Below are positions 16,170 to 47,125 of a stretch of 50,260 nucleotides of DNA, in pieces. The position numbers and the translations under genes are program-made. The stretch comes from Anaerococcus porci (GTDB lineage Bacteria > Bacillota > Clostridia > Tissierellales > Peptoniphilaceae). The stretch spans positions 1 through 50,260 of the forward strand of contig NZ_VULQ01000014.1 of NCBI RefSeq assembly GCF_009696575.1, in the 5' to 3' direction. Each line of letters starts with the position of its first letter. Positions within the stretch are counted from its first letter, which is position 1. Below the pieces are notes generated by a model. That model had not been told where the DNA came from and ran no database searches. It saw nothing but the letters and a program-made list of their open reading frames with translations.

Positions 16170-16188
16170 TTATTTCCTCCTTATATTC

Positions 16189-18188: not shown

Positions 18189-18189
18189 T

Positions 18190-19902: not shown

Positions 19903-19905
19903 CTT

Positions 19906-21321: not shown

Positions 21322-21333
21322 GTTTCGTACCTC

Positions 21334-22614: not shown

Positions 22615-22729
22615 TTGAATACCTCCTTTTAAATTTTTATATTTATTTACCAGTTGCAATATGATTGATTCAAAATAATCTTTACTGGTGAATTTTTCTT
22701 ATTTTTGTTTACTTTCCATAAAACGCAGA

Positions 22730-23505: not shown

Positions 23506-24162
23506 TTAATTATATATAAATTCTCTTGTTAGGTCCGCTACTAGTTTCCATTCTGGATCAAGCATACAATCATGACACACATCGTCTAAAACAACAATTT
23601 TTGATTTATACAACTTAGCTGATTCTATTACTGATTCTCCGAGTAAACAATTGTCATTTTTAGAATATATGGTTAATATTGGAACATTAAATTCTATTTT
23701 TTTAATTGAGGAATAAATAACAGGCAACATTCTTATGCTTAGAGGTTCCTTATTCATTTTATCAATATACTTTTTAGCGTTATTAACTCTTCCAGAAAAA
23801 AAGAATTCTTCCCTTGTCAACTTAATATAATTCTTATTAGTAAAGAATAAATTTTTAATCCTGTTTTCAATTGGAAATGGCATTAAAAAAACCATTGATT
23901 TCGGCACACAATCTTTATAAGTTTTTAAAAATTCATTTATAAACAAATTACCCATAGAATGTGTTATAAAAATAAACTCTGTATCAATTTTTTTAATATT
24001 TTCCCTTAATATTTTCATAGAATCTTTTAAATTTTTAGCTTCTTTTGATAATGCATGCACATGTAAATTGTATCCTTTTTCCTTAAAGTATGGTATAAAA
24101 TGTTCATTCCAGCACCATTCATAATGAAAAGCTCCACATACTAAAATAATTGTTTCTTTCAT
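23506..24162 (-). CDS. Alpha/beta hydrolase
   Basis: A 218-residue cytosolic alpha/beta hydrolase. It starts with a beta strand and a loop (LVCGAFHYEWCWNE). The nucleophile elbow is THSMGN (Ser of GxSxG-like HSMG), the acid is probably in IYSKNDNC and the histidine in VCHDCMLDPEW. The fold is similar to salicylate-esterase/EstA-like enzymes. It is the last gene of the biosynthetic operon, 23 bases after the fusion gene. In related clusters, free hydrolases edit or release intermediates or open ferric-siderophore esters. Which of these applies cannot be read from the sequence. Confidence 0.75.
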   Translation of the reverse strand: MKETIILVCGAFHYEWCWNEHFIPYFKEKGYNLHVHALSKEAKNLKDSMKILRENIKKIDTEFIFITHSMGNLFINEFLKTYKDCVPKSMVFLMPFPIENRIKNLFFTNKNYIKLTREEFFFSGRVNNAKKYIDKMNKEPLSIRMLPVIYSSIKKIEFNVPILTIYSKNDNCLLGESVIESAKLYKSKIVVLDDVCHDCMLDPEWKLVADLTREFIYN

Positions 24163-24185
24163 GACTACTTATTTATCTCCTTTTT

Positions 24186-26357
24186 TTATATTTTAACAAC
24201 AAATAATTGTTGCCCAAATTCATACAAGGCGTGTGTATTTTTAGGATAAGTAAGAATTTGTTTTTTATCAAATGTATCCTTTAATAAATCAAGCCATTCT
24301 AATCTATTTAAAAATGTTCTATTTTTCTCTAGCCTAATATCTGTTGGTTTTGTCATCATAAAAACTTGTGAAACAAGCATTTCAGGAGGTTCCTTAACTG
24401 GTTCTGCAATTAATATAAGACTATCTTTTTTTACAGTATTATATATCTCTCTCAATACTGTATTTAATTTTCCAGAATTATTTAATACACCTACAGCTAT
24501 CACTATATCAAAAGTTTCCTTTCCTAACTTTTCCAAATCTTTATCTATATCAATCTTTTCATATTCAATGTTACTAACAACATTTTCATATTTGCTTTTT
24601 GCACACTGGATAAAAAAATTCGATATATCTGTATATTTATATAATACTTCATCAATCAAATTTTCATCTATTAATCTTTTTAATACACTATCTGTAGTAG
24701 CTCCTATTCCAGCTCCTATTTCTAAAATTTTTATCTTATTAATTCCACTAGAATATTTTTTTACATAATCAGATATAGTTATTGCTACTAAGTCATTAAT
24801 ATATCTATATACCATGTTGTTCTTATATAATGCCTTTGCATATTTCAGGTCTCCCTCAGGAAATAATATAGAATTACATTTTTTCTTTCCATCAAATAAT
24901 TCTTGTAAATATTTTATATTTTGATTTATATAATCTATAGACAACGGATCTCCTAATTTCCAATCCCATAAGTTCTTTGCATCTTCATAATATCTATCAA
25001 TATTATTTTTATTCACGACTTTACGCAAATAACAATTATTATTTTCTAGATGTATAAATTCATTTTCGAATAATATATTTAACCATCTTAATATAATATT
25101 TTTATTTCTACTATTAAAGTTTTTTTCAATAATCTCATTTATATTATATTTGCGATTACAATCAATAAAAACACCATTATTTTGAAAAAACAATATCATG
25201 GACAAATATATATACATATTTATCGATTCTAAAAATTTATTTACATGAACATGATCTATAAATGAGTACCTTCTTTCAACATCTTGTATACAATGAATAT
25301 TCATTAAATTAGGTGTTTCATACAACCACTCATTTTTTTCTAAATTTGAGGATAAATATGAGTTTTGTTTTATTGTAAGGTCATCTTTTAAATCAAACTT
25401 TCTTACTAAATATTCAAATTCATCAAATAATTGAACATCTTTAATAATCTCGTGTACCTTTGGCAAATATTTTCTTCCATCATTCTTCATATTATTTAAA
25501 AAAGTGATCTGTTTTTTTACCAAAAGTAATAATTCATCATTTAAATCTGTTTTATTTTCGACTGTAAAAGATGTTTTTAAATTTAGTAGTTGTTCTGCAT
25601 TGTATAAATTTATATTTATGTTATCTTTATCAAAAAATAAATTTCTTCTATTTTCCCAGATAATTATATTTTTAAAAAATTCTAAAATCAAACTACCATC
25701 TTCAAATACAAACTCCAATTTATTTTCATAGTATTTGCATCTGTTATTAATATTTATAGGATCATATACTTTAAAGCAAAATGTTATTTCCGATATTTTC
25801 CCACTAATAGTAATAAATTCATCATGACTAAATGTTTTTATATCAAAACAAAAATTCTCATTAAGGCTTGACTTAATAATTTTAAAAATAGAAAATAACA
25901 TATCTTTAGATATAAACGAATCAATATATATTATTTTTTGTTCTTGCATTATTTGTTTCGCTTTTCTTATAAACATTTTTGAAATTTCTGTTTCTTCATA
26001 TAAATTTCTAATAAGATAGTAACAGTTTTTACTTTTTATTTCCTTTAAATATTTTATTGTATCTTTTTTACTTTTAGGAATTTCTTCAATTACGTTTATT
26101 CCTCTATTTAATAGATAGCGAACAATATCTACATCTCTATTAATTTCAGAATTAAATGGAACATATGCAAGTTTAGTATTATTAGGGATATTTTTTATAT
26201 TTGTAAAAAGTGGCAAATTATTAAAATATGCATCTCTAATTGTTGTCTTAGAATTAACTTCAAAAATTCCTGATATTTCAATTATATCTTTTAATTTAAA
26301 TAAAGATTCTACAATAAAATTTCCTGATACTTTTCCACAAATAATTGTTTCTATCAT
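24186..26357 (-). CDS. Fusion of a degenerate thiazolinyl-imide-reductase-like domain and an NRPS-type methyltransferase
   Basis: A 723-residue protein. Residues 1-290 resemble the two thiazolinyl imide reductases of the cluster (IETIICGKVSGNF; IRDAYFNNLPLFTNIKNIPNNTKLAYVPF; GINVIEEIP). The nucleotide-binding pattern GTxFGxxY is changed to GKVSGNFI, and the catalytic-region QEHP is EEIP. From about 340 the protein matches the methyltransferase block embedded in the cluster's own NRPS A domains: a winged-helix-like lead, an FPEGDLKYAKALY segment, SAM motif I EIGAGIGATT (about residue 545), and VSQVFMMTKP. The start is ATG 26357 with GGGGGGTG upstream. The methyltransferase looks active. The reductase-like part may act only as a docking or substrate-holding domain. 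I know of no such fusion. Confidence 0.75.
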   Translation of the reverse strand: MIETIICGKVSGNFIVESLFKLKDIIEISGIFEVNSKTTIRDAYFNNLPLFTNIKNIPNNTKLAYVPFNSEINRDVDIVRYLLNRGINVIEEIPKSKKDTIKYLKEIKSKNCYYLIRNLYEETEISKMFIRKAKQIMQEQKIIYIDSFISKDMLFSIFKIIKSSLNENFCFDIKTFSHDEFITISGKISEITFCFKVYDPININNRCKYYENKLEFVFEDGSLILEFFKNIIIWENRRNLFFDKDNININLYNAEQLLNLKTSFTVENKTDLNDELLLLVKKQITFLNNMKNDGRKYLPKVHEIIKDVQLFDEFEYLVRKFDLKDDLTIKQNSYLSSNLEKNEWLYETPNLMNIHCIQDVERRYSFIDHVHVNKFLESINMYIYLSMILFFQNNGVFIDCNRKYNINEIIEKNFNSRNKNIILRWLNILFENEFIHLENNNCYLRKVVNKNNIDRYYEDAKNLWDWKLGDPLSIDYINQNIKYLQELFDGKKKCNSILFPEGDLKYAKALYKNNMVYRYINDLVAITISDYVKKYSSGINKIKILEIGAGIGATTDSVLKRLIDENLIDEVLYKYTDISNFFIQCAKSKYENVVSNIEYEKIDIDKDLEKLGKETFDIVIAVGVLNNSGKLNTVLREIYNTVKKDSLILIAEPVKEPPEMLVSQVFMMTKPTDIRLEKNRTFLNRLEWLDLLKDTFDKKQILTYPKNTHALYEFGQQLFVVKI

Positions 26358-26424
26358 TTTTTCACCCCCCACAAAACGATATACTTTCTTTTTTAAATAT
26401 TTATTATAATATATACTTTATTCT

Positions 26425-29400
26425 CTATATTTCGCTCGACATATTTTCATTTAACATATTTGCTAAAACTTTTGAGTTTGACTTTCCTTGTACTGAACTA
26501 TAATGATTGCCTGGTATATAAAATTTTCTAATATCGCCAATAATTATATTCTTCCAATTTTCAGCTAGGATATTAAAGTGCTTATATGCCCCAACATTAT
26601 CTTTTGCTATATAGTAATCTATATCCCCAAAATATATTTCAGGCATAAATTTTTGAGCATTAAATGACTTTATGAAAATTTTATACATATCTAAAAAAGA
26701 TTTTTTTGTAATTGAATTTCCCTTATTTTTTACTAAATTATAATATAATTCAAATCTTTTTTGTTGAGATAAAGAATTTAATTTTTTTACATAAAGTATA
26801 TCTTCTTCGAATCGCATTTTACTCAATATATTATTAACCGTCATTGCATTCTCATAATTATTATCCATATTAGAAAATGCTATATCTAATATATTTGTTT
26901 CTTTAAATCCTATATCTGAAATTTCAATATTAAATGCTTGTAAGAAATTAAATTCCAATAATAATTCATCATAATTATAATTTAACAAGCTTCCACCTTC
27001 TATAACTGCTAAATTATCTACTAAAATTCCTGCTTCTAATAATCTCCTAGAAACTTCTATTGCAACTACCCCGCTAAAGCTATATCCTATTATTTGAACA
27101 TTTGTTGGAGAAAATTTTTGTATTTCTTTATAATACTCATTTGCCAATTTTTCAACTAATTCATCTGAATTTATATCTAGATACTTACCTATATCTGATA
27201 CACCCATCAATAATATATCTCCTTTATTTTGAGAACATAATTCCATTGCTAAATTTTTTAAATTTTCAAGATTTCCAAAAGCTCCATGTAATATAACTCT
27301 TAATCTTTTATCCTCGATGGCTGCACTATATTTTTTTGAGTATATAAATTCATCATTAGAAATATTATGCTCTGTACCGTTTCCGCCTTTCAATAACTCG
27401 GAAATCCTATAAAAAGTTGGTTCATCTATTAATTCTCTAAGTATATATTCAAATGTGCTACTTGATTCAATGCTTTTTCTAATTTCAGCTGCTATTTGAG
27501 CTAAAATCAATGAATCAGCTCCACATTCATATAAATTCTTATTTAAATTTAATTCTTCTTCATCTAAAAATTTAGCACAAATATTCAACACTTCTTTTGG
27601 TATAGATGTCTTTTTTGAATTAAAATTAATAGATTCATTTTCTGCACATCTCAAATAATCCGTTACATATGAAAAATTTTTCTTTATGTCAACTATACCA
27701 TTTGAAGTCAATTTGAATTTTTCTAAAAAAGTTATTTTGTCAGGCATCAAATCAATAGGTAAACATATCTTAAGATTATTATATATTTTCTCTCTATTGA
27801 TAAAAGAATAATCACTTTTAAACTGTTTTATAAACAAAACCATTCCTAATTTCTCTATAACAGATTCTTCTCTTGGTAAAGTAAAGATTTTTTCATTGTT
27901 TTCATATAATATATTTTTCCATTCTTCTATTGATAAGAAAAATTTGTTTTTCCTTAATGAATCTAATGGTTTTTCCATCATAAATACTTGAGATGCAATT
28001 ATCCACGGTTCATTACGTATAGGCTCAGAAAATAGTAAGTATCCCTTAGGCGCACATATATTTCTTATATAATTTAAACTACTTACAACATCTTTAGCAT
28101 TTTCTAAAACATAAGCGCCAATTATTATATCAAAATAATTGTATTCTATTCCTATTTTTATAGGATCTTCATTAATGTCCAATTGATAGATCTTAACATT
28201 TTTATTATCTTCAAACTTCTTTTTAGCTTTAGATAAAAAATATTTCTTTCCATCTGTAAAATGATATTCATAATCTACACCATTTAATAAATCTATTATT
28301 TTTTCAGATGTTGCCCCAGTTCCGGCACCTATTTCTAAAATTCTTATTTTCCTATGATTATTATTTTTAATATACTCATTAATAAAATTACAGTAAAAAT
28401 TATTAATAACAATAGAATTTATACTTGTATTATACATTGCATCAGTGTAAATATCAGAACCCTCAGGATATAATATATTTACTGGATCAATCTTCCCATT
28501 TAAAATTTCTACTAAATTATCCGTGCTGTCTTTGACATACTTTAAGTACTTCAAACTATTATCATTTTTAATATCCCATTTTAAAAAAACTTTTGTCCAT
28601 AAATTAGCAATATCATCATATGTCAAAATAGACTGAATTTTATAATCTCCATTTTCAGCATATATTATATTTTTTTCTATCAATTGATATAACCATCTGT
28701 CAATTATCCAATTATATTTATTATCATTTAATTTCCTTTTTCTTTTATATAAGTCAGAATTTGGTTCTTTTTTTAATATGTCTGTATCTATCATTGCATT
28801 TAGTATAGCATTTAAACATATTTTATCTCTTATATCGCATAATTCCCTATATTTGTTACTAAATAAGTATTCCTTATTTTTAATATCTATATCCTCATTA
28901 TTATTAAATAAAGTTTCATAATGCGAATCTAATTTATCATCTCTGTCTTCTCTAGCAATTGTTACTACTGATTCAATAGGAAATTCTTTTTTATTTTCAT
29001 TTACCATTACAATAGCATTTGAAATTACTTTTTGCTTAATTAAAGCATTTTTTATCTCCTCAAGTTCTATTCTATTGCCTCTTATTTTTACCTGAGTATC
29101 TTCCGTACCTAAAAATTCTATTTCTCCACTTGATAAATAGCGACCCAAATCTCCAGTAGAATAAAGTCTGACCTGCTTTAGAGGATGAATAAAGAACTTT
29201 TCTTCTGTTAACTTTTTATCTCCTAAATACCCTTCCGCCAAGCCTCTACCAGCTATATATAAATTACCTTCGCAATAAACTGGACAATCTTCAAAATTTT
29301 TATCTAATACATAAATTTGTTGATTAGTGAGCGGTTTCCCATACGGAATGCTTTTCCATCCCTTTTTAATACCTTTATATTCATGATAGTTAGACCATAT

Positions 29401-31797
29401 AGAGGCTTCTGTAGCACCTCCCAATACTATTATTTTAGATTCTACAAAAGTTTTTTGCACCGCATTAGGCATATTTAAAGGAATCCAATCTCTTGATAGC
29501 AATATTAGTTTAATAAAATTTTGTTTTTTTGATAAATTTTCTAAATAATTTAAATATAGTTTCATTAATTCTGGTACCATATTTAATATAGACACAGAAT
29601 TTTCTTCAATCAATTTATCCCAATGAGCGGGATTTAAATACTCACTTTCATCAGGATATACAATAGTTCCTCCAACTGATAGCATTCCAAAAATATCATA
29701 AACAGATAAGTCAAAATCTAATTTTGATATTCTTAATATGCAATCTCTCTCAGATATTTCAAATTTTTGATTTATATCATATATAGTATTAAATACTGCG
29801 CCATGATTTATTACAGCACCTTTTGGATTTTCAGTAGTCTCTGACGTAAACATGATATAAGCTGCATCAGTCGAATCGATATGTTCTATATTAAACATAT
29901 TTATCAAATCTAACCTATAATTTACATCATCAATGTTCACAAAATTTCTTTGTCTGCTATCATAACAACTGCCATTTGTCAAAATAACTTTACAATTACA
30001 TTGTTTTAAAATATTCTCTAATCTTTTTTCTTCTATATTAAAATCTACCGGAACATATATAGCTCCTACCATAAGTATTCCAAGAATAGTATAAACTTGA
30101 CTTTTATTATGTGGTAGTTTTACAATTATATGCTCACCTTTTTTTACATTTTTTTCTTTCAATGCTAAAGCTATAGATACAGACTTATTATATAATTCTT
30201 TATAAGAAATTGAACCTCTAGAGTCTATAACAGCCGCCTTATCTGGATAAGATTTTACTTTTTCTATAAAATCTTCTAATAATGTCTTATTATTAATTTT
30301 TTTATTTGTAGCATTAACTTTTTCTCTAATTTCACGTTGCCACTTAGGTAGATCAATTTCAAGACGTTTCTCCCAAAATTCTTTATTGTTCGATAAATTT
30401 ATTAAAATCTTCTTAAACTCACTAAACATATCCTCCAACATATCATCTTCAAATATTCCTTCACGAACATCCCAATTAATCTGTAAACCTAATTCAGTAT
30501 CCATAGCTTGACAATCAATAAATACTTGCGGTGTTTGAGATATTCCATACACATATCTTCCTATCAACCTCTTTTTAATTAACCCTATTGCACTTGTAAA
30601 TACATACGGTGCTAAAAATTCTTTGGAGTTATGCAGTTTAGCAATATCTCTTAATATATTAACTCCAGGATATGCACTATTATCTATTGAGCTGAATAAT
30701 TCTTTATTAACTTCTCTTGCTAACTCTGAAAAAGATTCTTTTATGTTTTTTATCGAAATTACCGATGTATTTGTAAAATCGCCTACTAAAGATTCTATAT
30801 TTTCCCCTAAATTTTTCTTGTTAAATAAAGTTAAATTTATAAGAAATTCTTTTTCTGTACTCCATTTTTTTAGTACTTCACTATATACAGTCAATACTGA
30901 TGCTGTCGGTGTTAAAGCATGGTTTTGAGCTAAAATTTTAAATTTATCCCACATATCCTTATCTAATGTTAAAGACAATCTTTTAAACTTACAAACGTCC
31001 GTTTCTTTTAGCGTTTTTAAAGGTATTACTGGAGATGTCTTTAATTTTCTAGTCTTTTGACTCCAATATGCTTTCGCCTTCTTGTATTCCGAGTTTTCTT
31101 TTGTCTTTTCTTCACTTATTATATAATTCCTAAATGATATCTTAGATTGTCTATCATTCTCTATTCCTTTAAAATACTTCATCTCAAACTCTAATAAAAG
31201 TTGCCATATACTTGACCAATCACATATCATAAAATCCATCGAAAAGTGTAAAATTGATTTTTCTCCATAATTTGATACTCCAATATCAAACATTGGCCAT
31301 TTTTCTAATTGATAAACTTTATCCTCTAACTGTTCTCTAATAGATATCCTATCTCCAGTAACAACCTCATATTCTGGAACTTTTTGTAGTATTTTTTGAT
31401 ATCCTTCTTTAAATATAACTGCCCTCAGCATTTCATGTTTATTTATCAAGTAATTCCATGTATCTTGTACTTTTGAAACGTCTAAATTATCATATAAAAA
31501 TTCTTGATAAATGTGACAAGATACATTTCCATATGAATGTAGGTCATCTCTTCCATAAAGATATGATGTCTGAACTGGAGATAATGGAAATGGTGCATAA
31601 TCATCTTTAACATCATATTTATTCTCAAGTTTTTTAATGTATTCTTTAAGTCCCTCTTTATTTAATTTTAATTCCATTAAAATATCTTCATCTAACTGAC
31701 CATTTATGGATTTATATTTTAACTTTTCACCATCAACATACAACTCAATACCTTGCTTAGAATATTTTTCAATTATTTCTTTATAACCGTTCTCCAT
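26425..31797 (-). CDS. PchF-like NRPS: Cy-A(MT)-PCP-TE with a degenerate A domain
   Basis: A 1790-residue terminal NRPS, close to PchF in length and domain order. Residues 1-57: TubC-type docking domain. About 68-490: Cy domain with intact DxxxxDxxS (D188, D193, S196). About 505-930: A domain with specificity residues DLYNLSLIW, the cysteine pattern. About 975-1325: inserted methyltransferase with intact EIGAGTGAT. About 1400-1465: PCP, Ser1429 in GADSL. About 1498-1785: thioesterase with Ser1573 (GYSFS) and a C-terminal GNHYSS histidine. The A domain is damaged: the core A3 motif reads TSETTENPKG (Glu653, Glu656), A5-region Arg769 replaces Gly, A8 reads IELEEI, and A10 is NGIVD with Ile1368 replacing the catalytic Lys. 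It should cyclise, methylate and release the chain, but probably cannot activate an amino acid. Confidence 0.88.
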   Translation of the reverse strand: MENGYKEIIEKYSKQGIELYVDGEKLKYKSINGQLDEDILMELKLNKEGLKEYIKKLENKYDVKDDYAPFPLSPVQTSYLYGRDDLHSYGNVSCHIYQEFLYDNLDVSKVQDTWNYLINKHEMLRAVIFKEGYQKILQKVPEYEVVTGDRISIREQLEDKVYQLEKWPMFDIGVSNYGEKSILHFSMDFMICDWSSIWQLLLEFEMKYFKGIENDRQSKISFRNYIISEEKTKENSEYKKAKAYWSQKTRKLKTSPVIPLKTLKETDVCKFKRLSLTLDKDMWDKFKILAQNHALTPTASVLTVYSEVLKKWSTEKEFLINLTLFNKKNLGENIESLVGDFTNTSVISIKNIKESFSELAREVNKELFSSIDNSAYPGVNILRDIAKLHNSKEFLAPYVFTSAIGLIKKRLIGRYVYGISQTPQVFIDCQAMDTELGLQINWDVREGIFEDDMLEDMFSEFKKILINLSNNKEFWEKRLEIDLPKWQREIREKVNATNKKINNKTLLEDFIEKVKSYPDKAAVIDSRGSISYKELYNKSVSIALALKEKNVKKGEHIIVKLPHNKSQVYTILGILMVGAIYVPVDFNIEEKRLENILKQCNCKVILTNGSCYDSRQRNFVNIDDVNYRLDLINMFNIEHIDSTDAAYIMFTSETTENPKGAVINHGAVFNTIYDINQKFEISERDCILRISKLDFDLSVYDIFGMLSVGGTIVYPDESEYLNPAHWDKLIEENSVSILNMVPELMKLYLNYLENLSKKQNFIKLILLSRDWIPLNMPNAVQKTFVESKIIVLGGATEASIWSNYHEYKGIKKGWKSIPYGKPLTNQQIYVLDKNFEDCPVYCEGNLYIAGRGLAEGYLGDKKLTEEKFFIHPLKQVRLYSTGDLGRYLSSGEIEFLGTEDTQVKIRGNRIELEEIKNALIKQKVISNAIVMVNENKKEFPIESVVTIAREDRDDKLDSHYETLFNNNEDIDIKNKEYLFSNKYRELCDIRDKICLNAILNAMIDTDILKKEPNSDLYKRKRKLNDNKYNWIIDRWLYQLIEKNIIYAENGDYKIQSILTYDDIANLWTKVFLKWDIKNDNSLKYLKYVKDSTDNLVEILNGKIDPVNILYPEGSDIYTDAMYNTSINSIVINNFYCNFINEYIKNNNHRKIRILEIGAGTGATSEKIIDLLNGVDYEYHFTDGKKYFLSKAKKKFEDNKNVKIYQLDINEDPIKIGIEYNYFDIIIGAYVLENAKDVVSSLNYIRNICAPKGYLLFSEPIRNEPWIIASQVFMMEKPLDSLRKNKFFLSIEEWKNILYENNEKIFTLPREESVIEKLGMVLFIKQFKSDYSFINREKIYNNLKICLPIDLMPDKITFLEKFKLTSNGIVDIKKNFSYVTDYLRCAENESINFNSKKTSIPKEVLNICAKFLDEEELNLNKNLYECGADSLILAQIAAEIRKSIESSSTFEYILRELIDEPTFYRISELLKGGNGTEHNISNDEFIYSKKYSAAIEDKRLRVILHGAFGNLENLKNLAMELCSQNKGDILLMGVSDIGKYLDINSDELVEKLANEYYKEIQKFSPTNVQIIGYSFSGVVAIEVSRRLLEAGILVDNLAVIEGGSLLNYNYDELLLEFNFLQAFNIEISDIGFKETNILDIAFSNMDNNYENAMTVNNILSKMRFEEDILYVKKLNSLSQQKRFELYYNLVKNKGNSITKKSFLDMYKIFIKSFNAQKFMPEIYFGDIDYYIAKDNVGAYKHFNILAENWKNIIIGDIRKFYIPGNHYSSVQGKSNSKVLANMLNENMSSEI

Positions 31798-31816
31798 TAT
31801 TTACCTCCTTATTAAA

Positions 31817-32866: not shown

Positions 32867-32867
32867 T

Positions 32868-35314: not shown

Positions 35315-35338
35315 ATTATTCCCTCCATAGTTGATTTA

Positions 35339-37857: not shown

Positions 37858-37879
37858 AATGTTCCTCTCTCCAAATACA

Positions 37880-40800
37880 TCATTTCAAAAAATCCCTCAA
37901 CTTTATTACCAAATTTTCAATATATGGAGTTTCCATAAATTCCCCTAATTCTAAATGAAAACCATATCGTTCCATTAATGTATTAGATAGTTGTATCATA
38001 TTTAAAGAATTCCCTCCTAGTTTAAAGAAGTTATCTTCTTTTTTTATTTCTTCAATTTTTAAAATTTCTTTCCAAATTTCTGATATAGAATAAAGTAACT
38101 CAGTGTTCAGTTTATCTTCTGTTTTCTTGTTTGATTTATGAATATCTTCATCAGGTTCATTATTTTGATAAACTGATAAGTCTTCTCTAATACATACATT
38201 ATTTTCAGTATCTTTATTTTCCTTATAATTAATTTTAGTGGAAAACGTATTGGTATTATTTATTATAGTATCCAATAAGTTTCCATAAGACTCAAACATC
38301 CTATCTAGCAACTGTGCCGTAAATATTTCATCAATGGAATCCCAAATTATTTTTAATTTGCCGTCCATTTCCATAACTTGATGATCAAGCCAAACTTGTG
38401 GTGTTTGAGAAATATTATATACAAGTTCTCCTAGCCAAGTATCTTTCCTGCCTTCAGACAAACCTAATCCACTTGTAAATACTATAGGCATTAAAGAATA
38501 TCTATTGTTAGAGTATTTATTCCTTAATTCTCTTCCAAATTCTACAGCACTATATGAATTGTGTTTTGTATCTTCTAATAATTGTTTTTGCAACATTTTG
38601 GATTTTTCTAGCAATGAATCGCTAGTACAATTTTTTACTTCAAGAAATGTTAGGTTAGTAAAATCTCCTATGATTTTATTTATATCCGGATGAATTTGTT
38701 CCTTGTTAAACTGTGTAATATTTAATACAAATTCATCATTTAATGAATATTTCCTAATTATTTCAGAAAATAATGTTATTAATAAAATTGTCAATGTTAT
38801 GTTATTTTCTCTTGCGATTCCTTTTAATTTATTCAATCCATAAGAATCAATAATTTTTTCTCTTCTATTAAAAGTTTGTTCTTCTATATCACTTTCTAAC
38901 TTTGCTATTTCAAATTTAGGGGCTTCCAAAAATCCATTCAATCTATCCAGCCAATATTTTTTATCAACTTGATATTTAGATGTGTTTTTTACTTTTCTAA
39001 TTTCTAAAACATAATCTCTAAATGAAACATCTGGTAATTCCTTATAAAAATTTTCATCATTATATCTTAATTTCAATTCATCTAGAATATAGAACATACT
39101 CCAACCGTCTAAAATAATATTATCTAAACTAATATGGAGTCTGGATTTAATTTCATCTAAAATGCTAAGTTTGAAATTAAATATAGGCCATTTATCTATC
39201 TTTAATATTTCGTGAGACATAATATCTCTAGTCAGTTTTAAAGCTTCCTCTTGTTCAACCTTATTAAGACATGATAAGTTATTAATATCTAACATAAATG
39301 GTGGAACTTTTCCCAATATCTGTTGTGTTCCATTGTTTAAAATTATCGCCCTTAACATAGAATGATACTTAATCATATCATTTATTACCTTTTGAAGTTT
39401 ATTAGGCTCAATATTCAAACAATCTAATTCGAAGTAACAATGTGTTGCTACTGAACCTAAAGAATACATTTTGTTTCTTCCTATCCAATATGCAAATTGC
39501 ACATCCGTTAATGGAAATGGCTCATTTATGTTTTTAAAATCATGTACAATTCTTTTATATGGTAAATGTCTATCTTTTTCGATTTTCTTAATAAACTCTG
39601 AAAAATCTCTTAAAATAGGATATTTAAAGATATCGCCAATTGATACTTCTACGCATAATTCTTTTTGAATTTTTGAAACAACCTTTGTTGCTGTAAGAGA
39701 ATCTCCCCCTAATTGAAAATAATTAGAAGTAAACGATACATTTTCATTATTTAAAATTTCTTTGTATATATCAATTATTTTTTTTGTAATTTCATCATAC
39801 TTTTCTATTTCATTTGTATTATTAATCCTTTTTCTGACATTGATAAAATTATGATTATCATTTCTTTCTATCAATTTTCTTAATGATTTTCTGTCAATTT
39901 TCCCATTTTTATTTAATGGCATTTCTTCTACAATTATAAACTCAAGTGGAATCATGTATTCAGGAAGCTTGTTCTTTAAAAATTTAATTAATTCATCTTG
40001 TTCAACATCTATTTTGTTATTTTTAAGAACATATATCATACTTCCCATTTTGTTAATTTCAGTCTCATTAGATAAATACTCAATTTTATATTTACAATTT
40101 TCACTTGCATTTTTAATGTTTTTAATATTTGGAATAATTTTTCCATTTCGCTCTAACAAATCAAAATCAATAAAACCACGTTCTAATACAGATGCACTAA
40201 TTTCTGGTAATAATAATTCATCATTTATTTCAGTTCCAATCACAACGCCCATAGGAGCTAATATGGTTTTTATATTACGCAACATATCTGAAATATTATG
40301 AGAACGATGTAGCGAATTATATAATATGACAATATCAAAATTTTCCGTTTTAAAATTTTCCAAATACTTACTTGAAGAATTTATTTTTATAAACTCGAAA
40401 CAAGTATATTTATTTTTTATGCCTTCAAACTCATTTGAAAAATATAGCGAAGTGTCGGTATAAACATATTTTTCGATTTTATCTTCAAAGTTTGTAATTA
40501 CCTCTTCTGTTAATTCGCTATTTCTTCCACCTATTTCTAAAATCTTAAGCTTTTTATTTTTGCCATCAAATACCATCTTTATAATTTCAATAAGTTCATT
40601 TATATTTTCTTTATAATTTTTTAGGTTTTTCAAAAGTCTGGAAGGACTAAGTTTAGATTCAGAAGCATAAAACACATCAATAGCTTGTTTCTTACCCTGT
40701 ATAATATCTACCACATTATTTTTGAAATTATCTAGGTTGACTGTTGTGTCTAATGCTATATCTATTTTTTTAAATAAGTAAATACCATCTTCTAAACTTA

Positions 40801-43800
40801 TCATACTATGCTCTTGCAATAATAATAGCCATCTTTTTACGAGCAATTCGTATCCTATATCTATTTCTCCAAATTTCATTATTTCATCAAAAGAATACCT
40901 TTTCCCTTGACTAATACCCAAATCCATGAAAATAGAAAATATCAAACCTAAAACCATATTATTTTCACTATTTAGATACTCATCATAATCAATGTATTCA
41001 GATTTCAGTTTATTTATTTTTTCATTACTACTTAATCTAGTTAATGTATGATCCTTACTCTCATTACTTTCAATAAATGCGACCAATTGATTATTAGTGC
41101 CTATCTTAATAACATCAACAACAGCTTTATTAATTTTAGGATTTCCAATTAAAGCATCTTCAATTTCTCCAAGTTCTATTCGGTGCCCTTTAACTTTTAC
41201 CTGATTATCAAGCCTTCCTAAAAATTCAATAGTTCCATCATTCCATGTTCTTCCAGCATCTCCAGTTCTATACCATTTAACTCCATCCGATTCTACAAAT
41301 TTCTTTTCTGTTAATTCCTTATCTCCCCTATATCCCTTTGCAACACCAACCCCACCAATTAACAATTCTCCTTTAACATAGTTAGGACATATTCTTCCTA
41401 AACCATCAACTACTCTATAGACTTGATTCTTTAACGCTTTTCCATACGGAATAGAAATCCAATTTTCAGGTATTTCTTTTGGAATATTGATATAGTTTGA
41501 CCATATGGATGCCTCCGTTGCTCCACCCATTCCAACTACAAGAGAGTTTTTACTTCTGCTATAAAATCTTTTAGGCAATGTTGTTGTAATCCAGTCTCCA
41601 GAAAGAAACACTAATCTCAATGGAATAAAAACATTTTTACCTTCTGCCATAGTTACTAGCATATCAAAAAGAATTGGTACAGAATTCCATATTGTTACTT
41701 TATATTTTTTAATAAGTTCTAACCAAAGTTCTGGATTTTTGAAATTATTATCATTTAAAGTAATGATGGTTCCTCCAGTTGATAGTATCCCAAAAATATC
41801 ATAAACTGACAGATCAAAATCAATTGCCGATACCATTATTACACTATCATTAGTATTTACTTTATATCTTTCATTTAAGTCATTTATTGTATTAATAGCA
41901 CTATTATGTGCAATTTCAACACCTTTAGGAATTCCTGTCGTTCCTGATGTCATAATTACATAGGCTGTATCAAACGGACTAATATTGACAGGTTTTTCAA
42001 TTATACTTTGAATAGTTGATTGATCCATATCAACAAATGTGATATCTGTATCATCTAAATTAAAATCCCTTATTGTATTTTTATTGGATAAGACATGTTT
42101 TATTCCTATCTGTTCATATATTTTCCTTCTTCTTTCGTTGGGTTGATTAATACCGATAGGAACATATGCTGCACCGGCAAATAAAATTCCTAAAATACCA
42201 ACTATTTGACTATATCCCCTTGGCAATGTTATTCCCACGTAGTCATTCTTTTTTACTCCAAAAGAAATTAAATTTGTTGCAATAATTAACGCCTTTTTGT
42301 ACAAATCTCCATAAGTTAATTCAATACCGGATTGTGCATCCACGATAGCAACTTTTTCCGGGTTTACTTTAATCCTATCAAGAAATTCTGTATAGAGAGT
42401 TTGTTTAGGGTAACTCAAAGGCAAAATATTTTTTAATTCTTTTTCTCTATCTTCAATCTGATTCAACGGAAGAATTTCAGTCAATCTATACCAATTTTCA
42501 TTATCACTTAATGATTGTAATAAAGTGTATAAAGAGTCGAACATATCATCAATCATTCCATCTGGAAATAATTCATCAACCACATCCCAGCATAATACAA
42601 TCTCATCATCTACTAAATAAGTTTGAAAATCGAGCCAAACTTGTGGAGTTTGTGATACCATATAGTTTATTTTCCCGAATATTTTTCTTGTTTCCTGAGT
42701 CTCTAAAGGATAATCTATATTACAAGCAAACACCACAGGTGCAATATTGATAGTTTTTCCAACTTCTTTATAAACATCTCTTTGTACCTGCACTCCAGAG
42801 TATGAGCTGTGAGAGGCATTTTCTAAAAATGTGCCAGATATAGTTTTCACTCTATCTAAAAAATTTTCATTCTTTCTTTCACACTCAACTAATAGAAGAT
42901 TAGTAAAATCTGCAACCATCCTTTTAACACTATTACCATTTACATCTCTATTGAATAATGGAACATTGATTACAAAATTTTCTTGATTTGTCCATCTTTC
43001 AATAATCATTGAATATGCTGATAACAGAACCATTGATGGGGTAACTTTATTTTTATATGCATTTTCTTTAATCTTAATCCAGTTTTCTTTGCTAATAATT
43101 TTCTTTCTTCTTGAAAAAACCACTTTTTCAATCATTTCTGGTTTTTTGTTGATGGGTAAGTTAGGTGCCTCTAAAGGAAAACTGGATTCAATTTTTTTCT
43201 TCCAGAATTCCTTATCTTTTTTGTATATTTCGTCATCTATTTTTCGTCCCTCCAGATAATTTTTAAAAGTATAATTGCTATCTATTGAAACTTTATCTTC
43301 TCCGCAGTACAGCTCTACAAGTCTACTCATTATAATGCCTATGCTCATTATATCTGCAACTAGAATATCAACATCTAAAAATATTCTATGTTTTTTATCC
43401 TTTAGTAACGCAATGCTAAGGCTAGCTACTTCTCCAACTTCTATATCAAATTTTCTATGAGACATTCCTTTTCTCATTTCCAATAGTTTTATGTCTGCAT
43501 CTTCTTCAGATAGTGAAGTATAATTAAAAATTTTAACTTCTTTTGAGTATGGTTCTTCCATAATTTGCTGAGTACCATTACGGTTAAATTTTGCTCTAAG
43601 CATTGGATTTTCCATTTGTAAACAGTTCCAAGCAGCAGTTAATTTATCTGTTACAATCTCTTGTCCATCAATTTCTAAGTATGCGTGACACCCAACACCA
43701 CCTAGAACCTGATCTTCTTCTCTCCCTACAAAATAAGCATACTGTACATCCGTTAAAGGGAACTCTTCCGAAATATTCTTTTCTCTTAAATCAGTTTTTT

Positions 43801-44053
43801 TATCAATATTTTTAATATTTGCTTTTTCAATAAGTCTAATCCAATCTTCAAGTGTAGGATTTTCCATTAGTTTTGCAAACGATAATTTTATCCCTAATTT
43901 TTTAAGCTCTGAAACTATTTGCATGATTTGGATAGAGCCTAAACCCTTTTCAATCAAATTGTCTTTTCCTGAAGGTTTAAATCCATCTAAATCTTCTTGT
44001 AAAACTTCATCAAGAAGCTTTATTGCCTGTTGCCTGATTTGATATTCTTCCAT
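37880..44053 (-). CDS. HMWP2/Irp2-like NRPS: ArCP-Cy-A(MT-like)-PCP-Cy-PCP
   Basis: A 2057-residue NRPS, nearly the length of HMWP2 and with the same domain order. ArCP 1-80 (Ser40 in GLGSIQ). Cy1 about 95-530 (D229, D234, S237). A domain about 550-1000 plus A10 near 1385: TSGTTGIPKG intact, catalytic Lys1385 in NGKIDR, specificity residues DLYNFSMIWK, close to the cysteine code. The MT-like insertion about 1010-1350 has a broken SAM motif (EIGGRNSE), as in the epimerase-like insert of PchE/HMWP2. PCP1 Ser1452 (GGDSL), Cy2 about 1510-1920 (D1644, D1649, S1652), PCP2 Ser2016 (GGNSL). It would load an aryl starter and add two cysteine-derived rings. It is the only NRPS here with an intact A domain. 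Confidence 0.92.
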   Translation of the reverse strand: MEEYQIRQQAIKLLDEVLQEDLDGFKPSGKDNLIEKGLGSIQIMQIVSELKKLGIKLSFAKLMENPTLEDWIRLIEKANIKNIDKKTDLREKNISEEFPLTDVQYAYFVGREEDQVLGGVGCHAYLEIDGQEIVTDKLTAAWNCLQMENPMLRAKFNRNGTQQIMEEPYSKEVKIFNYTSLSEEDADIKLLEMRKGMSHRKFDIEVGEVASLSIALLKDKKHRIFLDVDILVADIMSIGIIMSRLVELYCGEDKVSIDSNYTFKNYLEGRKIDDEIYKKDKEFWKKKIESSFPLEAPNLPINKKPEMIEKVVFSRRKKIISKENWIKIKENAYKNKVTPSMVLLSAYSMIIERWTNQENFVINVPLFNRDVNGNSVKRMVADFTNLLLVECERKNENFLDRVKTISGTFLENASHSSYSGVQVQRDVYKEVGKTINIAPVVFACNIDYPLETQETRKIFGKINYMVSQTPQVWLDFQTYLVDDEIVLCWDVVDELFPDGMIDDMFDSLYTLLQSLSDNENWYRLTEILPLNQIEDREKELKNILPLSYPKQTLYTEFLDRIKVNPEKVAIVDAQSGIELTYGDLYKKALIIATNLISFGVKKNDYVGITLPRGYSQIVGILGILFAGAAYVPIGINQPNERRRKIYEQIGIKHVLSNKNTIRDFNLDDTDITFVDMDQSTIQSIIEKPVNISPFDTAYVIMTSGTTGIPKGVEIAHNSAINTINDLNERYKVNTNDSVIMVSAIDFDLSVYDIFGILSTGGTIITLNDNNFKNPELWLELIKKYKVTIWNSVPILFDMLVTMAEGKNVFIPLRLVFLSGDWITTTLPKRFYSRSKNSLVVGMGGATEASIWSNYINIPKEIPENWISIPYGKALKNQVYRVVDGLGRICPNYVKGELLIGGVGVAKGYRGDKELTEKKFVESDGVKWYRTGDAGRTWNDGTIEFLGRLDNQVKVKGHRIELGEIEDALIGNPKINKAVVDVIKIGTNNQLVAFIESNESKDHTLTRLSSNEKINKLKSEYIDYDEYLNSENNMVLGLIFSIFMDLGISQGKRYSFDEIMKFGEIDIGYELLVKRWLLLLQEHSMISLEDGIYLFKKIDIALDTTVNLDNFKNNVVDIIQGKKQAIDVFYASESKLSPSRLLKNLKNYKENINELIEIIKMVFDGKNKKLKILEIGGRNSELTEEVITNFEDKIEKYVYTDTSLYFSNEFEGIKNKYTCFEFIKINSSSKYLENFKTENFDIVILYNSLHRSHNISDMLRNIKTILAPMGVVIGTEINDELLLPEISASVLERGFIDFDLLERNGKIIPNIKNIKNASENCKYKIEYLSNETEINKMGSMIYVLKNNKIDVEQDELIKFLKNKLPEYMIPLEFIIVEEMPLNKNGKIDRKSLRKLIERNDNHNFINVRKRINNTNEIEKYDEITKKIIDIYKEILNNENVSFTSNYFQLGGDSLTATKVVSKIQKELCVEVSIGDIFKYPILRDFSEFIKKIEKDRHLPYKRIVHDFKNINEPFPLTDVQFAYWIGRNKMYSLGSVATHCYFELDCLNIEPNKLQKVINDMIKYHSMLRAIILNNGTQQILGKVPPFMLDINNLSCLNKVEQEEALKLTRDIMSHEILKIDKWPIFNFKLSILDEIKSRLHISLDNIILDGWSMFYILDELKLRYNDENFYKELPDVSFRDYVLEIRKVKNTSKYQVDKKYWLDRLNGFLEAPKFEIAKLESDIEEQTFNRREKIIDSYGLNKLKGIARENNITLTILLITLFSEIIRKYSLNDEFVLNITQFNKEQIHPDINKIIGDFTNLTFLEVKNCTSDSLLEKSKMLQKQLLEDTKHNSYSAVEFGRELRNKYSNNRYSLMPIVFTSGLGLSEGRKDTWLGELVYNISQTPQVWLDHQVMEMDGKLKIIWDSIDEIFTAQLLDRMFESYGNLLDTIINNTNTFSTKINYKENKDTENNVCIREDLSVYQNNEPDEDIHKSNKKTEDKLNTELLYSISEIWKEILKIEEIKKEDNFFKLGGNSLNMIQLSNTLMERYGFHLELGEFMETPYIENLVIKLRDFLK

Positions 44054-44065
44054 GCGATATTCTCC

Positions 44066-45655
44066 TTATTTAATCATTTGTTGCTTCAATTTATTTTTAT
44101 CTATCTTTCCAACGCTTGTTAATGGCCATTGATCAACATACTGTACTTCATCCGGTAACTTAAAAGAAGCAAGTCCTCTTTCTACCAAATAATTCCTTAT
44201 ATCTCTAAGCGTAAGAACGGTACTCCCCTTCAAAATAAATACACCTATTTTTTCTCCGAGAGTCTCATCGGGTATGCCAACAATTTGCACTTCTCTAATA
44301 TTCTTATTTGTAAGCAAAATATTTTCCAACTCAGAAGGAACTATTTTTTCTCCAGCACGATTTATCATCTCCAACACACGACCAACAATTTTATAATTGT
44401 CTCCATATAACTTAGCGGCTCTATCTCCTGTTCTTAAAAAACATTCTTCTGTAAACTGAGTATCATTTAGTTTTGATGAATCATAATATTCCAAAATAGT
44501 ATATGGTCCCCTAACTATTAGCTCTCCAAAATCTCCATCAGAAACCTCTTTCCCGTTTTCATCAACAATACGAGCTTCGTCAAACTCACTTAACTTCTTC
44601 CCTTGAGTATATAATCTGTCATAATCATCGTCCAAAACCCTAGAGCAAGTAATCAACGACTCACTCATGCCATATAATTGCAATAATTTACAATTAAATT
44701 CTTCCTGAATCTTTTTTGCTAAGTTAGAATCAAGAACAGATCCACCTATCTGTATATACTTCAAACTGCTGATATCAGCATCATCATTTTTAAGATATTC
44801 TATACACATATTAGCTAAAGTAGGTACCAATGCCATAATGCTAATTTCCTGTTCCTCAATCAAAGGTATTATTTCATCAGGACTGGATACTCTACAAGTA
44901 ACCACCTTACCACCTTTTGACAATGTCCCAATCATTCCCGGACAACAAAGTGCAAATTTATGGCTCATAGGTAAAGCTGCCAAATACACTGTATCTTCAT
45001 TCATATCCGTTGCATTTGCCAATTCTTTTGCTAAATATATAAATTCACAATGCCTATTAGGTATTAGTTTAGGAAAGCCGGTTGTACCTCCTGACAATAA
45101 AAATATAGCAGTTTCCTTATAATCTAACTCTTCGGCAAATTTATTTTTTCTATTTTGTCTTAAAGCACATAATTTCTCATATTTCTCTGTTTCGCCAATC
45201 AAATAAACTTGTAAATCTTCTTTCGTATCTTCTATAATACTAGACACCATATCTTCATATGAAAATCCTAAGTACCTGTTAATTCCAATATATGCTTTTG
45301 CATTTGTTTTATTTAAAATTCCCTTAACTTCAGAATATCTATGACCCATCAAGATAATTACAGGAATCACTCCTATACTCATCATTGCAAATAAAATTAT
45401 AATGAATTCTTTACTATTAGGAAGTTGAAATAATACTTTATCTCCCTTACAGAAGCCTTGATTTAAAAGTCCATTAGCATAACAATCCACTTCATCTTTA
45501 AGTTGTCTATATGTCAATTCTTCATTTTCATCTACAACTGCTACTCTATCGGCGTATGTATTTGACCACATTTTCAAATGTTCGCTAACGGTTAGATGCT
45601 CCCAAACATTTTTGTCATAAAAGTTGATTAATTGTCTCTTAATCTCTAAATTCAT
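44066..45655 (-). CDS. Aryl-acid AMP ligase (DhbE/EntE/YbtE family)
   Basis: A 529-residue stand-alone adenylation enzyme that activates an aryl acid and loads the ArCP of the next protein. Visible motifs: LSGGTTGFPKLIPN, TGDRA, INRAGEKI, and the catalytic lysine in SVGKID near the C-terminus. In the aryl pocket the family motif HNxPLxxPG reads HKFALCCPG: the Asn that contacts the carboxylate and 2-hydroxyl in DhbE (Asn235) is Lys, Tyr236 is Phe, and Ser240 is Cys. The Phe and Cys are salicylate-type; the Lys is unusual. No aryl-acid synthase is encoded nearby, so the acid must come from elsewhere. It starts 18 bases after the phosphopantetheinyl transferase gene. Confidence 0.9.
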   Translation of the reverse strand: MNLEIKRQLINFYDKNVWEHLTVSEHLKMWSNTYADRVAVVDENEELTYRQLKDEVDCYANGLLNQGFCKGDKVLFQLPNSKEFIIILFAMMSIGVIPVIILMGHRYSEVKGILNKTNAKAYIGINRYLGFSYEDMVSSIIEDTKEDLQVYLIGETEKYEKLCALRQNRKNKFAEELDYKETAIFLLSGGTTGFPKLIPNRHCEFIYLAKELANATDMNEDTVYLAALPMSHKFALCCPGMIGTLSKGGKVVTCRVSSPDEIIPLIEEQEISIMALVPTLANMCIEYLKNDDADISSLKYIQIGGSVLDSNLAKKIQEEFNCKLLQLYGMSESLITCSRVLDDDYDRLYTQGKKLSEFDEARIVDENGKEVSDGDFGELIVRGPYTILEYYDSSKLNDTQFTEECFLRTGDRAAKLYGDNYKIVGRVLEMINRAGEKIVPSELENILLTNKNIREVQIVGIPDETLGEKIGVFILKGSTVLTLRDIRNYLVERGLASFKLPDEVQYVDQWPLTSVGKIDKNKLKQQMIK

Positions 45656-45673
45656 AATATTTGCCCTACCTTT

Positions 45674-46348
45674 TTAATAGCATAATGCAAAAACAAATTT
45701 TTCTTTTTCAAAAATTAAAATCTCCTTTTGAATATCATTTTCTTTATCTATAACTTTCATTACATTATTATTTTTATTAATAACATCAACTGTTTCCAAA
45801 TTTTGAATTAAGCCGACTCCTTTATATTTTAAATAAGCTTCTTTAGAAACCCAATATTTGTAAAAGTCCTTCAGACCTAATATTTTTTCATTGTTAATAA
45901 AAAAATTATTCTTAATTTCACTATAATCTATATTTCTTTCTATATTTTCAATATCAACTCCTATATCATTTCTTGAGAAAGCTACTATTGAAAATCCTGT
46001 GGTATGTGATATATTAAAATGTAAATTCAAATGATTTCTAATATATGGTTTATTATATTTACCGTAACGCCATCTAATCTCTTCGCATTTTAGTTTCTCA
46101 ATTTTAGAAAATAGCAAGTTTACTATTGCTTTTGTTACAGCATAATTAATTCTGTCACTTTCTTTTCTATACTTCCACATAATTTCAATTTGATCTTTAC
46201 TTAAATATGGAATACATTCACTTATAATTCCATAACTATTTGTTTCTACAGCAACTACTGCTATACAATCATCATGTATAAATTGAACTACCTCATTAAT
46301 GTCATATTTTGTTAGTTCTGTATTTTTAATTATTTTTAACGTTTTCAT
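45674..46348 (-). CDS. Sfp-type 4'-phosphopantetheinyl transferase
   Basis: A 224-residue enzyme that attaches the phosphopantetheine arm of CoA to the carrier-protein serines of the assembly line. Signature motifs: IGVDIENIER (magnesium and CoA binding) and the second motif FYKYWVSKEAYLKYKGVG. An RWRYGKYNKPYI segment and an NLHFNISHT stretch match the Sfp core. The gene overlaps the thioesterase gene by 23 bases. It can serve the ArCP, the two PCPs of the HMWP2-like protein, the split-module PCP and the PchF-like PCP. Confidence 0.9.
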   Translation of the reverse strand: MKTLKIIKNTELTKYDINEVVQFIHDDCIAVVAVETNSYGIISECIPYLSKDQIEIMWKYRKESDRINYAVTKAIVNLLFSKIEKLKCEEIRWRYGKYNKPYIRNHLNLHFNISHTTGFSIVAFSRNDIGVDIENIERNIDYSEIKNNFFINNEKILGLKDFYKYWVSKEAYLKYKGVGLIQNLETVDVINKNNNVMKVIDKENDIQKEILIFEKEKFVFALCY

Positions 46349-47084
46349 TAATATAGCTTTTTATTTCCCTTATAACCATTTCAGTAGATGTATTTACAAA
46401 CATATGCTTGCCATCTATATATTTATAGACGAATTCTTTTGTTGTATAATCTTGCCATTTTTTAAGTTCTTCTAATTTCATTTCTTGATCTTTATCTCCC
46501 ATAAGTCCAAGTATGGGACTTTCTAATTTTTCATGTTTTGTATCTTTATAGTCCTCGTCTATTACAAAATCTGCTCTAAGTGTCGGTAAAAAAATTGAAA
46601 TTAATTCTTTATTATCTAATATCTCTTTCGGAGTTCCCTCATATCTTCTTAGACCTTCTATAAATCCCTCATCATTTAGATGATAAATTGGGTTTGGTTC
46701 TTTATATAGTGGAGCTCGCCCTGCTGAAATTATTATCCCTCTTGGGTTTACATAATCAGACTTTTTGATTCTTAAAGCAAGTTCATAGACAATCTTTGTT
46801 CCCATGCTATGTCCAAATAAAAAGTAAGGTTTTTCAAAATCAAAATTTTCTTTCATATCATTGAATAACTCTTCCACTAAAACATTTATATCACTTATAG
46901 CCTTTTCAGAGAATCTATTTTCTCTGCCAGGATACTGTGCCACGTAAAGTCTAGTATCATCAAATTTATCTGCCCATTTTCTAAATGCGGATACTCCACC
47001 TCCTGCAAACGGAAATATAACAAGGCTAGCTTTAATATTATTTTCGTCTAATTCTTTATTTAGTATTTCAAAATTTTTTGACAT
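46326..47084 (-). CDS. Type II thioesterase
   Basis: A 252-residue external thioesterase of the GrsT/YbtT family. The N-terminus has FPFAGGGVSAFRKW, the nucleophile elbow is FGHSMG, the acid follows in MGDKDQEM, and the histidine is in GKHMFVN. These enzymes remove misprimed or stalled acyl groups from NRPS carrier proteins. This is the first gene of the long minus-strand operon; an iron-box-like palindrome and promoter lie just upstream. AAGGTG precedes the ATG at 47084. Confidence 0.9.
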   Translation of the reverse strand: MSKNFEILNKELDENNIKASLVIFPFAGGGVSAFRKWADKFDDTRLYVAQYPGRENRFSEKAISDINVLVEELFNDMKENFDFEKPYFLFGHSMGTKIVYELALRIKKSDYVNPRGIIISAGRAPLYKEPNPIYHLNDEGFIEGLRRYEGTPKEILDNKELISIFLPTLRADFVIDEDYKDTKHEKLESPILGLMGDKDQEMKLEELKKWQDYTTKEFVYKYIDGKHMFVNTSTEMVIREIKSYINENVKNN

Positions 47085-47109: not shown

Positions 47110-47125
47110 GTTAGCGATAGCTAAC
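47110..47125. promoter_or_regulatory. DtxR/IdeR-box-like operator of the metallophore operon
   Basis: GTTAGC-GATA-GCTAAC is a perfect 6+6 inverted repeat with a four-base centre, flanked by AAGG on the minus strand. It resembles the DtxR consensus TTAGGTTAGSCTAACCTAA, with a longer spacer. It lies immediately downstream of the -10 element, where bound repressor would block initiation. A DtxR-type gene sits next door. Confidence 0.7.

Follow-up and report, generated by a model that had tools for sequence, protein, structure and literature searches.

The equibactin locus eqbA-N, carried by Streptococcus equi on the mobile element ICESe2, and nonribosomal peptide synthetase (NRPS) cluster 1 of Clostridium kluyveri (CKL_1504-1517), in print since 2008, are close relatives of the locus analysed here. 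In the text available from the equibactin paper, which compares the two, EqbE, EqbG and EqbM are required and EqbN is helpful for equibactin activity in Escherichia coli, and the palindrome to which the regulator EqbA binds in response to Fe2+, Zn2+ and Mn2+ lies upstream of eqbB (PMC3672683). According to the portions available of two further papers, antiSMASH has linked an element of C. difficile RT023 (PMC6814731) and an NRPS of S. lugdunensis (PMC12709192) to equibactin. The present analysis concerns a 50,260-nt stretch of DNA from Anaerococcus porci (NZ_VULQ01000014.1; the window, to which all coordinates refer), which is contig C6 of a 2.23-Mb host genome in 37 contigs (99.79% complete). 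An operon on its minus strand is likely to be metal-regulated and mobilisable, and to make, export and re-import an aryl-capped polythiazoline/thiazolidine metallophore on an assembly line built like C. kluyveri NRPS cluster 1.

The operon extends from 47084 to 23506 in the order te2, ppt, lig, nrpsE, red1, cy, pcp, eqbM-like, red2, nrpsG, redMT, hyd. It is intact and occupies a single strand with intergenic spacings of -23 to +52 nt, in agreement with an earlier note on the sequence that had described short gaps or overlaps. That note had also proposed a mobile thiazoline-type metallophore line with reduced and methylated rings, near to equibactin and its C. kluyveri homologue. Both proposals are supported, the former by four cyclization (Cy) domains, reductases and methyltransferases and the latter by gene content and order. 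To assign the parts of the line, domains were called with Pfam and NCBIfam scans. The matches to ligase, NRPS, reductase, thioesterase (TE) and Cy families have E-values of 1e-26 to 1e-135, above chance, and the motif DxxxxDxxS is present in all four Cy domains. The largest protein, the 2057-residue HMWP2/EqbE-like nrpsE (37880..44053; domain scan and motifs), has the predicted order ArCP-Cy-A-PCP-Cy-PCP, with a stuffed E-type domain in its adenylation (A) region. The third module is split between cy (35339..36796), a stand-alone 485-residue protein with a TubC_N docking domain and a Cy domain (PF18563, PF00668; DCSILDAWS), and pcp (33938..35314), which lacks an A domain. The 458-residue pcp protein is not simply a carrier protein, as had been supposed: its PCP (residues 383-443; PF00550) is preceded by a decayed stuffed domain of epimerase/methyltransferase type (residues 1-375) for which no Pfam match was found. 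By hhalign, this region matches the E-type stuffed domains of nrpsE and four relatives (probability 96.5%, E 8e-10) rather than the methyltransferase (MT) domains of nrpsG and four relatives (24%, E 8e-4). Its S-adenosylmethionine motif is gone, and the His that is invariant across both E-type sets (SLHR / FLHQ), the histidine of stuffed epimerases, is kept. The terminal protein nrpsG (26425..31797; 1790 residues; domain scan and motifs) carries the Cy, A, PCP and TE domains named earlier, as well as a TubC_N domain and an overlooked methyltransferase between A and PCP, in the order TubC_N-Cy-A-MT-PCP-TE. Its TE Ser (GYSFSG) and MT motif I are intact, and its A domain is decayed. No polyketide synthase (PKS) domain was found among the Pfam matches of the window proteins, as had been noted, which is unlike HMWP1 of yersiniabactin.

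The accessory enzymes surround these proteins. The first gene of the operon is the EqbB-like type II thioesterase te2 (46326..47084; PF00975, 1.4e-40), followed by the EqbC-like 4'-phosphopantetheinyl transferase ppt (45674..46348; PF01648, 1.5e-9; AusB model 1.2e-23, below its cut-off) and the aryl-AMP ligase lig (44066..45655; TIGR02275, 9.5e-135, below the curated cut-off; DhbE and PchD alignments); the domain scans bear out all three earlier assignments. Both predicted thiazolinyl imide reductases, red1 (36793..37857; 9.4e-69) and red2 (31817..32884; 8.1e-61), match TIGR01761 above its curated cut-off. In an alignment with YbtU, red1 keeps the His of QEHP and the Tyr of NLY, the counterparts of YbtU His101 and Tyr128, which we take to be catalytic. 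Two enzymes had been missed: the EqbM-like oxidoreductase with a saccharopine/carboxyspermidine-dehydrogenase fold (32868..33941) and redMT (24186..26372), in which a reductase-like N-terminus (TIGR01761, partial, 65 bits) is fused to a methyltransferase (AprA MT2, 3.3e-20). The operon ends with hyd (23506..24162), an alpha/beta serine hydrolase-like protein and candidate EqbN counterpart, which also adjoins redMT in five comparison loci (G053a, G035, G009, G001 and G030; G and L numbers denote our comparison genomes and loci) and is fragmented in G111. Family scans give weak matches for the EqbM-like protein (Pfam E 1e-4) and hyd (PF06821, 0.0007, below cut-off), and both are assigned by fold or synteny; a sequence search of the PDB with the EqbM-like protein gave a best E-value of 0.06.

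Adenylation domains share the core motifs A3, A8 and A10, and the residues at their pocket positions tell the substrate type. The A domain of nrpsE is intact (TSGTTGIPKG, SGDWI and NGKIDR) and has a Cys-type pocket. The A domain of nrpsG (29008..30207; motif table) is degraded and reads TSETTENPKG at A3, SRDWI for SGDWI, and NGIVDI at A10, where NGK has become NGI. The terminal A domain of genome G625, presumed to be C. kluyveri, is intact at these positions (TSGTTGVPKG, SGDWV and NGKVDI). The core changes of nrpsG are common to A. vaginalis and A. degeneri, which keep the A10 Lys in their differing second half. In the whole host genome, the amino-acid adenylation family has three matches, all of which lie within the window: the aryl ligase and the A domains of nrpsE and nrpsG. 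No amino-acid A domain was found elsewhere. With the A domain of nrpsG degraded, no A domain in the split module and no further one from the genome scan, the nrpsE domain, the sole sound one for Cys, is predicted to charge all four PCPs on three proteins, probably two of them in trans. The number of A domains differs among relatives: four in G507 and G187a (two of them in nrpsE, and one each in nrpsG and the split protein), two in G625, and one in each of two Finegoldia magna lines, whose terminal NRPS has none. Such a series would be expected of lines in which one A domain is able to serve every carrier. Charging in trans by one A domain is called probable for both equibactin and yersiniabactin in the available text of the equibactin paper (PMC3672683).

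The aryl ligase is about equally similar to DhbE (E 5e-109) and PchD (2.6e-108), and has a Cys at the position of the PchD Cys (Ser in DhbE). The chorismate-binding family PF00425 has no match in the host genome and is matched in 14 of 14 control genomes; the aryl acid is therefore probably supplied from outside. In the same vein, equibactin production in defined medium is reported, in the text available, to have required added salicylate (PMC3672683). In the proposed pathway, an external aryl acid, salicylate or a close analogue, would be adenylated and loaded on the ArCP; nrpsE would add two Cys rings; the separate Cy protein and the A-less E-type/PCP protein would add a third; and nrpsG would add a fourth, methylate, and release the product via its TE. 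One thiazoline would be reduced by red1, and other rings may be reduced or methylated by red2, the EqbM-like protein and redMT. For a salicylate-capped product of four Cys rings, the predicted [M+H]+ would be 479.033 if unreduced and unmethylated, 495.065 after one reduction and one methylation, and 511.096 after two of each.

Regulation and transport genes flank the operon, likewise on the minus strand. Upstream of te2 lies reg (47241..47612; PF02742, 1.5e-10), a short, EqbA-like metalloregulator of the DtxR/MntR type. Its TTG-started open reading frame encodes 104 residues, and the full frame probably starts at an ATT codon at 47612, in line with the start that RefSeq gives for the A. prevotii homologue. 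An ATT (AUU) start behind a G-rich ribosome-binding site appears to be used both there and at L083:18036, is annotated as such by RefSeq in A. prevotii, and could, as a shared rare start codon, be regulatory. The te2 promoter (TTGATA-N17-TATAAT) has a TTGATAA-N3-TTATCAA dyad that covers the -35 box. An operator-like dyad, GTTAG-N6-CTAAC (47110..47125), emerged from a comparison of upstream regions and is located after the -10 box and before te2. The match in the window alone is not significant (0.57 expected at <=2 mismatches); the dyad occurs, with a variable centre, in nine of ten upstream regions, several of which are near-copies, and the exception is G625. Upstream of reg (~47745-47780), TTGCTATAA-like units also form a short tandem repeat that is visible by eye.

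Downstream of hyd, a 132-residue gene of no assigned kind (p132) precedes a transport block that reaches down to 14832 and had been overlooked (14832-22659). This block comprises an energy-coupling factor (ECF) importer, with an S component of the Trep_Strep/MptD family (22021..22659; PF09605, 1.4e-52), a CbiQ-like T component (21334..22020; PF02361, 6.8e-8) and an A component of two fused ATPase domains (19906..21321; domain scan). It continues with two ATP-binding cassette (ABC) permease-ATPases (18190..19902 and 16446..18188; domain scans), the first of the EqbK/L and YbtP/Q kind by layout, and a MATE-family exporter (14832..16169; PF01554, 1.7e-35), with a truncated ATPase gene between the ABC pair and the exporter. 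Genes of the ECF and ABC-pair kinds follow the NRPS genes in all eight loci of the first map set and in G625.

Several points weigh against the proposed pathway as a whole. The product, its metal and its ring count are predictions made from the genes. In the ligase, Lys replaces the Asn of the 'HN' found in DhbE and PchD, so the cap may be other than salicylate. Seventeen ligases were aligned, and six of the 16 that cover this position have the Lys (the window, the near-copies G035 and G009, G625, G052 and G647). The number of reductions is uncertain, as red2 has Gln for the His of QEHP and the cofactor and active-site motifs in the reductase half of redMT are degenerate, its MT motif I being intact; the reductases of Kp and G512, which otherwise look intact, have the QEQP of red2 as well. 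The nrpsG A domain, moreover, keeps an open frame and a Cys-type pocket, and may retain some activity. It is conceivable that this domain continues to work, or works on a different substrate, and that the line uses two A domains like the presumed C. kluyveri genome. The Cys-type pocket, scores of 321.7 and 316.8 bits in two scans around a cut-off of 317.4, and the A10 Lys retained in A. vaginalis and A. degeneri favor this explanation, but the loss of the A3 glycines, of SGDW (to SRDW) and, in the window copy, of the A10 Lys argues against it, as does the existence of lineages with no terminal A domain (F. magna and, from the available description, EqbG; PMC3672683). We consider a two-A-domain line unlikely.

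A comparable uncertainty concerns the number of rings. Related clusters on an A. prevotii plasmid and in A. senegalensis have two or three Cy domains, the decay of one A domain and the loss of another could mark a dying line, and the Peptoniphilus harei copy has broken genes. The split or terminal module may then go unused and the extra carriers be idle or skipped, in which case the product would have two or three rings like pyochelin or the product proposed for equibactin. Such disuse seems improbable, since the carrier and Cy active-site motifs are all intact in the window and identity among near-copies is 97-100% for both cy and pcp. Finally, equibactin gave neither a chrome azurol S (CAS) signal nor a liquid chromatography-mass spectrometry (LC-MS) peak, in the text available from its authors (PMC3672683), and iron may not be the metal bound. 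Rather than an iron siderophore, the product could be a metallophore for zinc, copper or manganese, or a chelator used in antagonism, which would fit with the ECF-type import genes, and with the lack of CAS activity and the Fe2+, Zn2+ and Mn2+ responsiveness of EqbA. Within the accessible parts of two other papers, Zn binding is suggested for mupirochelin (PMC10080011) and other metals are raised by the S. lugdunensis authors for an ECF-linked NRPS (PMC12709192). In contrast, the 55Fe uptake and streptonigrin data described for equibactin indicate iron (PMC3672683, as available), and a metal other than iron appears rather doubtful. An aryl-capped product of four Cys-derived rings, built with one Cys A domain, is the preferred reading.

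The element that carries the operon is recognizable at both ends. On the plus strand, mobC and a MobA/VirD2-type relaxase (48220..49958; PF05713/PF21983 and PF03432) are the conjugation genes within the window, whose contig ends at 50260; weakly SSB-like and SNF2-helicase-like genes come next in G009. The other end has three large serine recombinases (8461..13436, minus strand; PF00239/PF07508), homologues of which (68-95%) lie downstream of the cargo in seven of eight loci (all but G053a) and in G052 and G125. Directly upstream of the first recombinase gene is a pemK RNA motif (RF02913, E 2.9e-8; 13766-13830, minus strand). Genes that look truncated occupy the left flank (4546-5367, 6616-7137 and 2765-3055): part of a sodium:dicarboxylate symporter behind a helix-turn-helix, part of an ABC ATPase, and a short receiver of response-regulator type next to a histidine kinase gene.

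Near-identical copies of the operon are present in genomes taken to be those of Aedoeadaptatus coli, P. harei (G111), Anaerococcus sp. Marseille-P3625 and 'Peptostreptococcus sp. MV1' (G273), the last of which is listed in another family and is covered from the middle of nrpsE onward. The DNA of the window is 96.0-97.3% identical to that of G030, G001 and G111 over 32.8-33.8 kb, compared with 64-79% where the rpoB region can be aligned. The front half is near-identical, as far as read, in seven genomes of four genera, including the window's own, A. vaginalis and A. degeneri. With A. vaginalis, DNA identity is 97.0% from 48070 to 29023 and then falls to ~58-74% in nrpsG. The drop is at about codon 925, ten residues past the A8 motif, and A. 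degeneri changes in the same 200-base block. Past this joint, the MT-PCP-TE part of nrpsG, redMT, hyd and the transporters differ in both species, and past the swapped part identity rises again, to 76-92%, in the three serine recombinases and a sigma-like gene. More than one joint exists, because the ABC (88%) and MATE (60-64%) genes vary even among the otherwise near-identical window-type copies. The mobC-relaxase pair also adjoins differing NRPS cargos, and more distant assembly lines sit on related mobC-relaxase/recombinase backbones in A. senegalensis, F. magna (G053b) and G052/G125; in F. magna G053a, the relaxase is 56% identical and no such recombinases are present in the stretch read. 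Because related backbones carry differing lines or half-lines, the backbone appears to stay where it is as its cargo is exchanged, in whole or in half. We tentatively propose, as a reading that may well prove too broad, that this mobile family sheds A domains (four, two, one) since one Cys A domain charges all carriers in cis and in trans, and also swaps the half-line that follows the terminal A domain, with its transporters, at a joint between A core and methyltransferase, so that one front half would give at least two chemotypes on one backbone in Anaerococcus and relatives. If true, this joint would be a natural and repeatedly used one for NRPS exchange, a single adenylation domain would feed a four-carrier, three-protein line, and Anaerococcus, Peptoniphilus and Finegoldia would have a mobile source of siderophore-type chemistry; no such product from these genera is among the open-access literature matches listed.

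The loci compared were found via the PCP protein, EqbM or nrpsE, and shares among them are not prevalences. Among 27 gene maps, a stand-alone Cy protein accompanies an A-less PCP protein in ten and an A-containing one in two (G187a and G507), and 15 have neither arrangement. These maps are not independent: the window has near-copies in G001, G030, G111 and L053, G035/G009 and G052/G125 are near-copies pairwise, and two of the maps show the 14S0207 plasmid. Near-full-length matches to the PCP protein occur in 8 of 130 family genomes (domain-only matches in 15 further) and in 3 of 391 genomes of a class sample (the window genome, G053 and G273), the other 49 of 52 matching genomes there being partial. 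A scan of viral contigs gave no relative of the locus, and a plasmid search with the PCP protein gave carrier-domain matches only. Several individual copies have features of their own. The P. harei near-copy (G111, C5) has nrpsE, nrpsG and redMT each in two frames and a shortened hyd, which may reflect either true decay or faulty assembly. A 6-kb contig of the same genome (C21; L051) bears part of another copy, in which EqbM is matched in full and fragments of the PCP protein contain stops. F. magna DSM 20470 (G053) carries two different lines of the family on C1 and C10. Neither has a terminal A domain, and DCSILDAWC replaces DCSILDAWS in their stand-alone Cy proteins. In a different cluster (G355:C1, ~339100-344300), a free protein of 968 residues with an A domain, a stuffed domain and a PCP lies between two EqbM-like genes. 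The Klebsiella pneumoniae plasmid CP032834.1 (L100, 12556-30771), with generic annotation, has a salicylate-type NRPS line, an EqbM-like gene and a reductase-methyltransferase fusion adjoining TonB receptors.

Compared with known systems, the line is not unreported, as the earlier note had thought: the same core order, split module included, is present in G625 and corresponds to the already known C. kluyveri type. There, the genes run te2-lig-nrpsE-red1-cy-pcp-eqbM-red2-nrpsG-ABC-ABC-ECF S/T/A-MATE, with the lig-to-nrpsG order of the window, 38-60% identity from te2 to nrpsG, and a stand-alone Cy protein followed by an A-less PCP protein. Unlike this cluster, the window has redMT, hyd and p132 after nrpsG and the ECF genes before the ABC pair in reading order. 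G625 in turn has no adjoining redMT-hyd pair, its PPTase outside the block, ECF S in two frames, an intact terminal A domain where that of the window is not, and no GTTAG-N6-CTAAC dyad that was found. By the available description (PMC3672683), the equibactin locus shares with the window a DtxR-like regulator, type II TE, PPTase, aryl ligase, EqbE-type NRPS (ArCP-Cy-A-E-PCP-Cy-PCP), reductase, EqbM-type enzyme, ABC pair, importer and mobile element, and it has an alpha/beta hydrolase for which hyd is a candidate counterpart. It differs in EqbG (1272 residues, no A domain, TE Ser to Ala) and in having three Cy domains with no split third module described, as opposed to four and a split module. 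The layout of yersiniabactin HMWP2 spans 97% of nrpsE at 31% identity, but the window is distinguished from that system by the absence of a PKS and by the extra split module and ECF importer genes. With pyochelin, the window shares a PchD-like ligase and, through a low-confidence model, a possible match of the pcp stuffed domain to PchE, and the PchF order Cy-A-MT-PCP-TE resembles nrpsG. Unlike pyochelin, which has two Cy domains and the two modules of PchE and PchF, the window has four Cy domains and a decayed terminal A domain. The coelibactin, sorangibactin and mupirochelin clusters, as described in the available text, likewise combine a saccharopine-dehydrogenase-like enzyme with separate methyltransferases (PMC10080011, PMC10127202), and SrbE, an enzyme of this kind, is reported there to be needed for sorangibactin (PMC10127202). 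They differ from the window in containing a P450, none of which was seen there, and the TE of the window has Ser (GYSFSG), not Cys. In the open-access literature, a solved product was found neither for the C. kluyveri-type line nor for equibactin, which its authors, in the text available, did not detect by LC-MS (PMC3672683). The window and its relatives provide new sequences for this undetected product and for the reaction of the EqbM/SrbE enzyme. Relative to G625, its new features are the added redMT and hyd and the decayed terminal A domain, together with the swapping of half-lines among its relatives.

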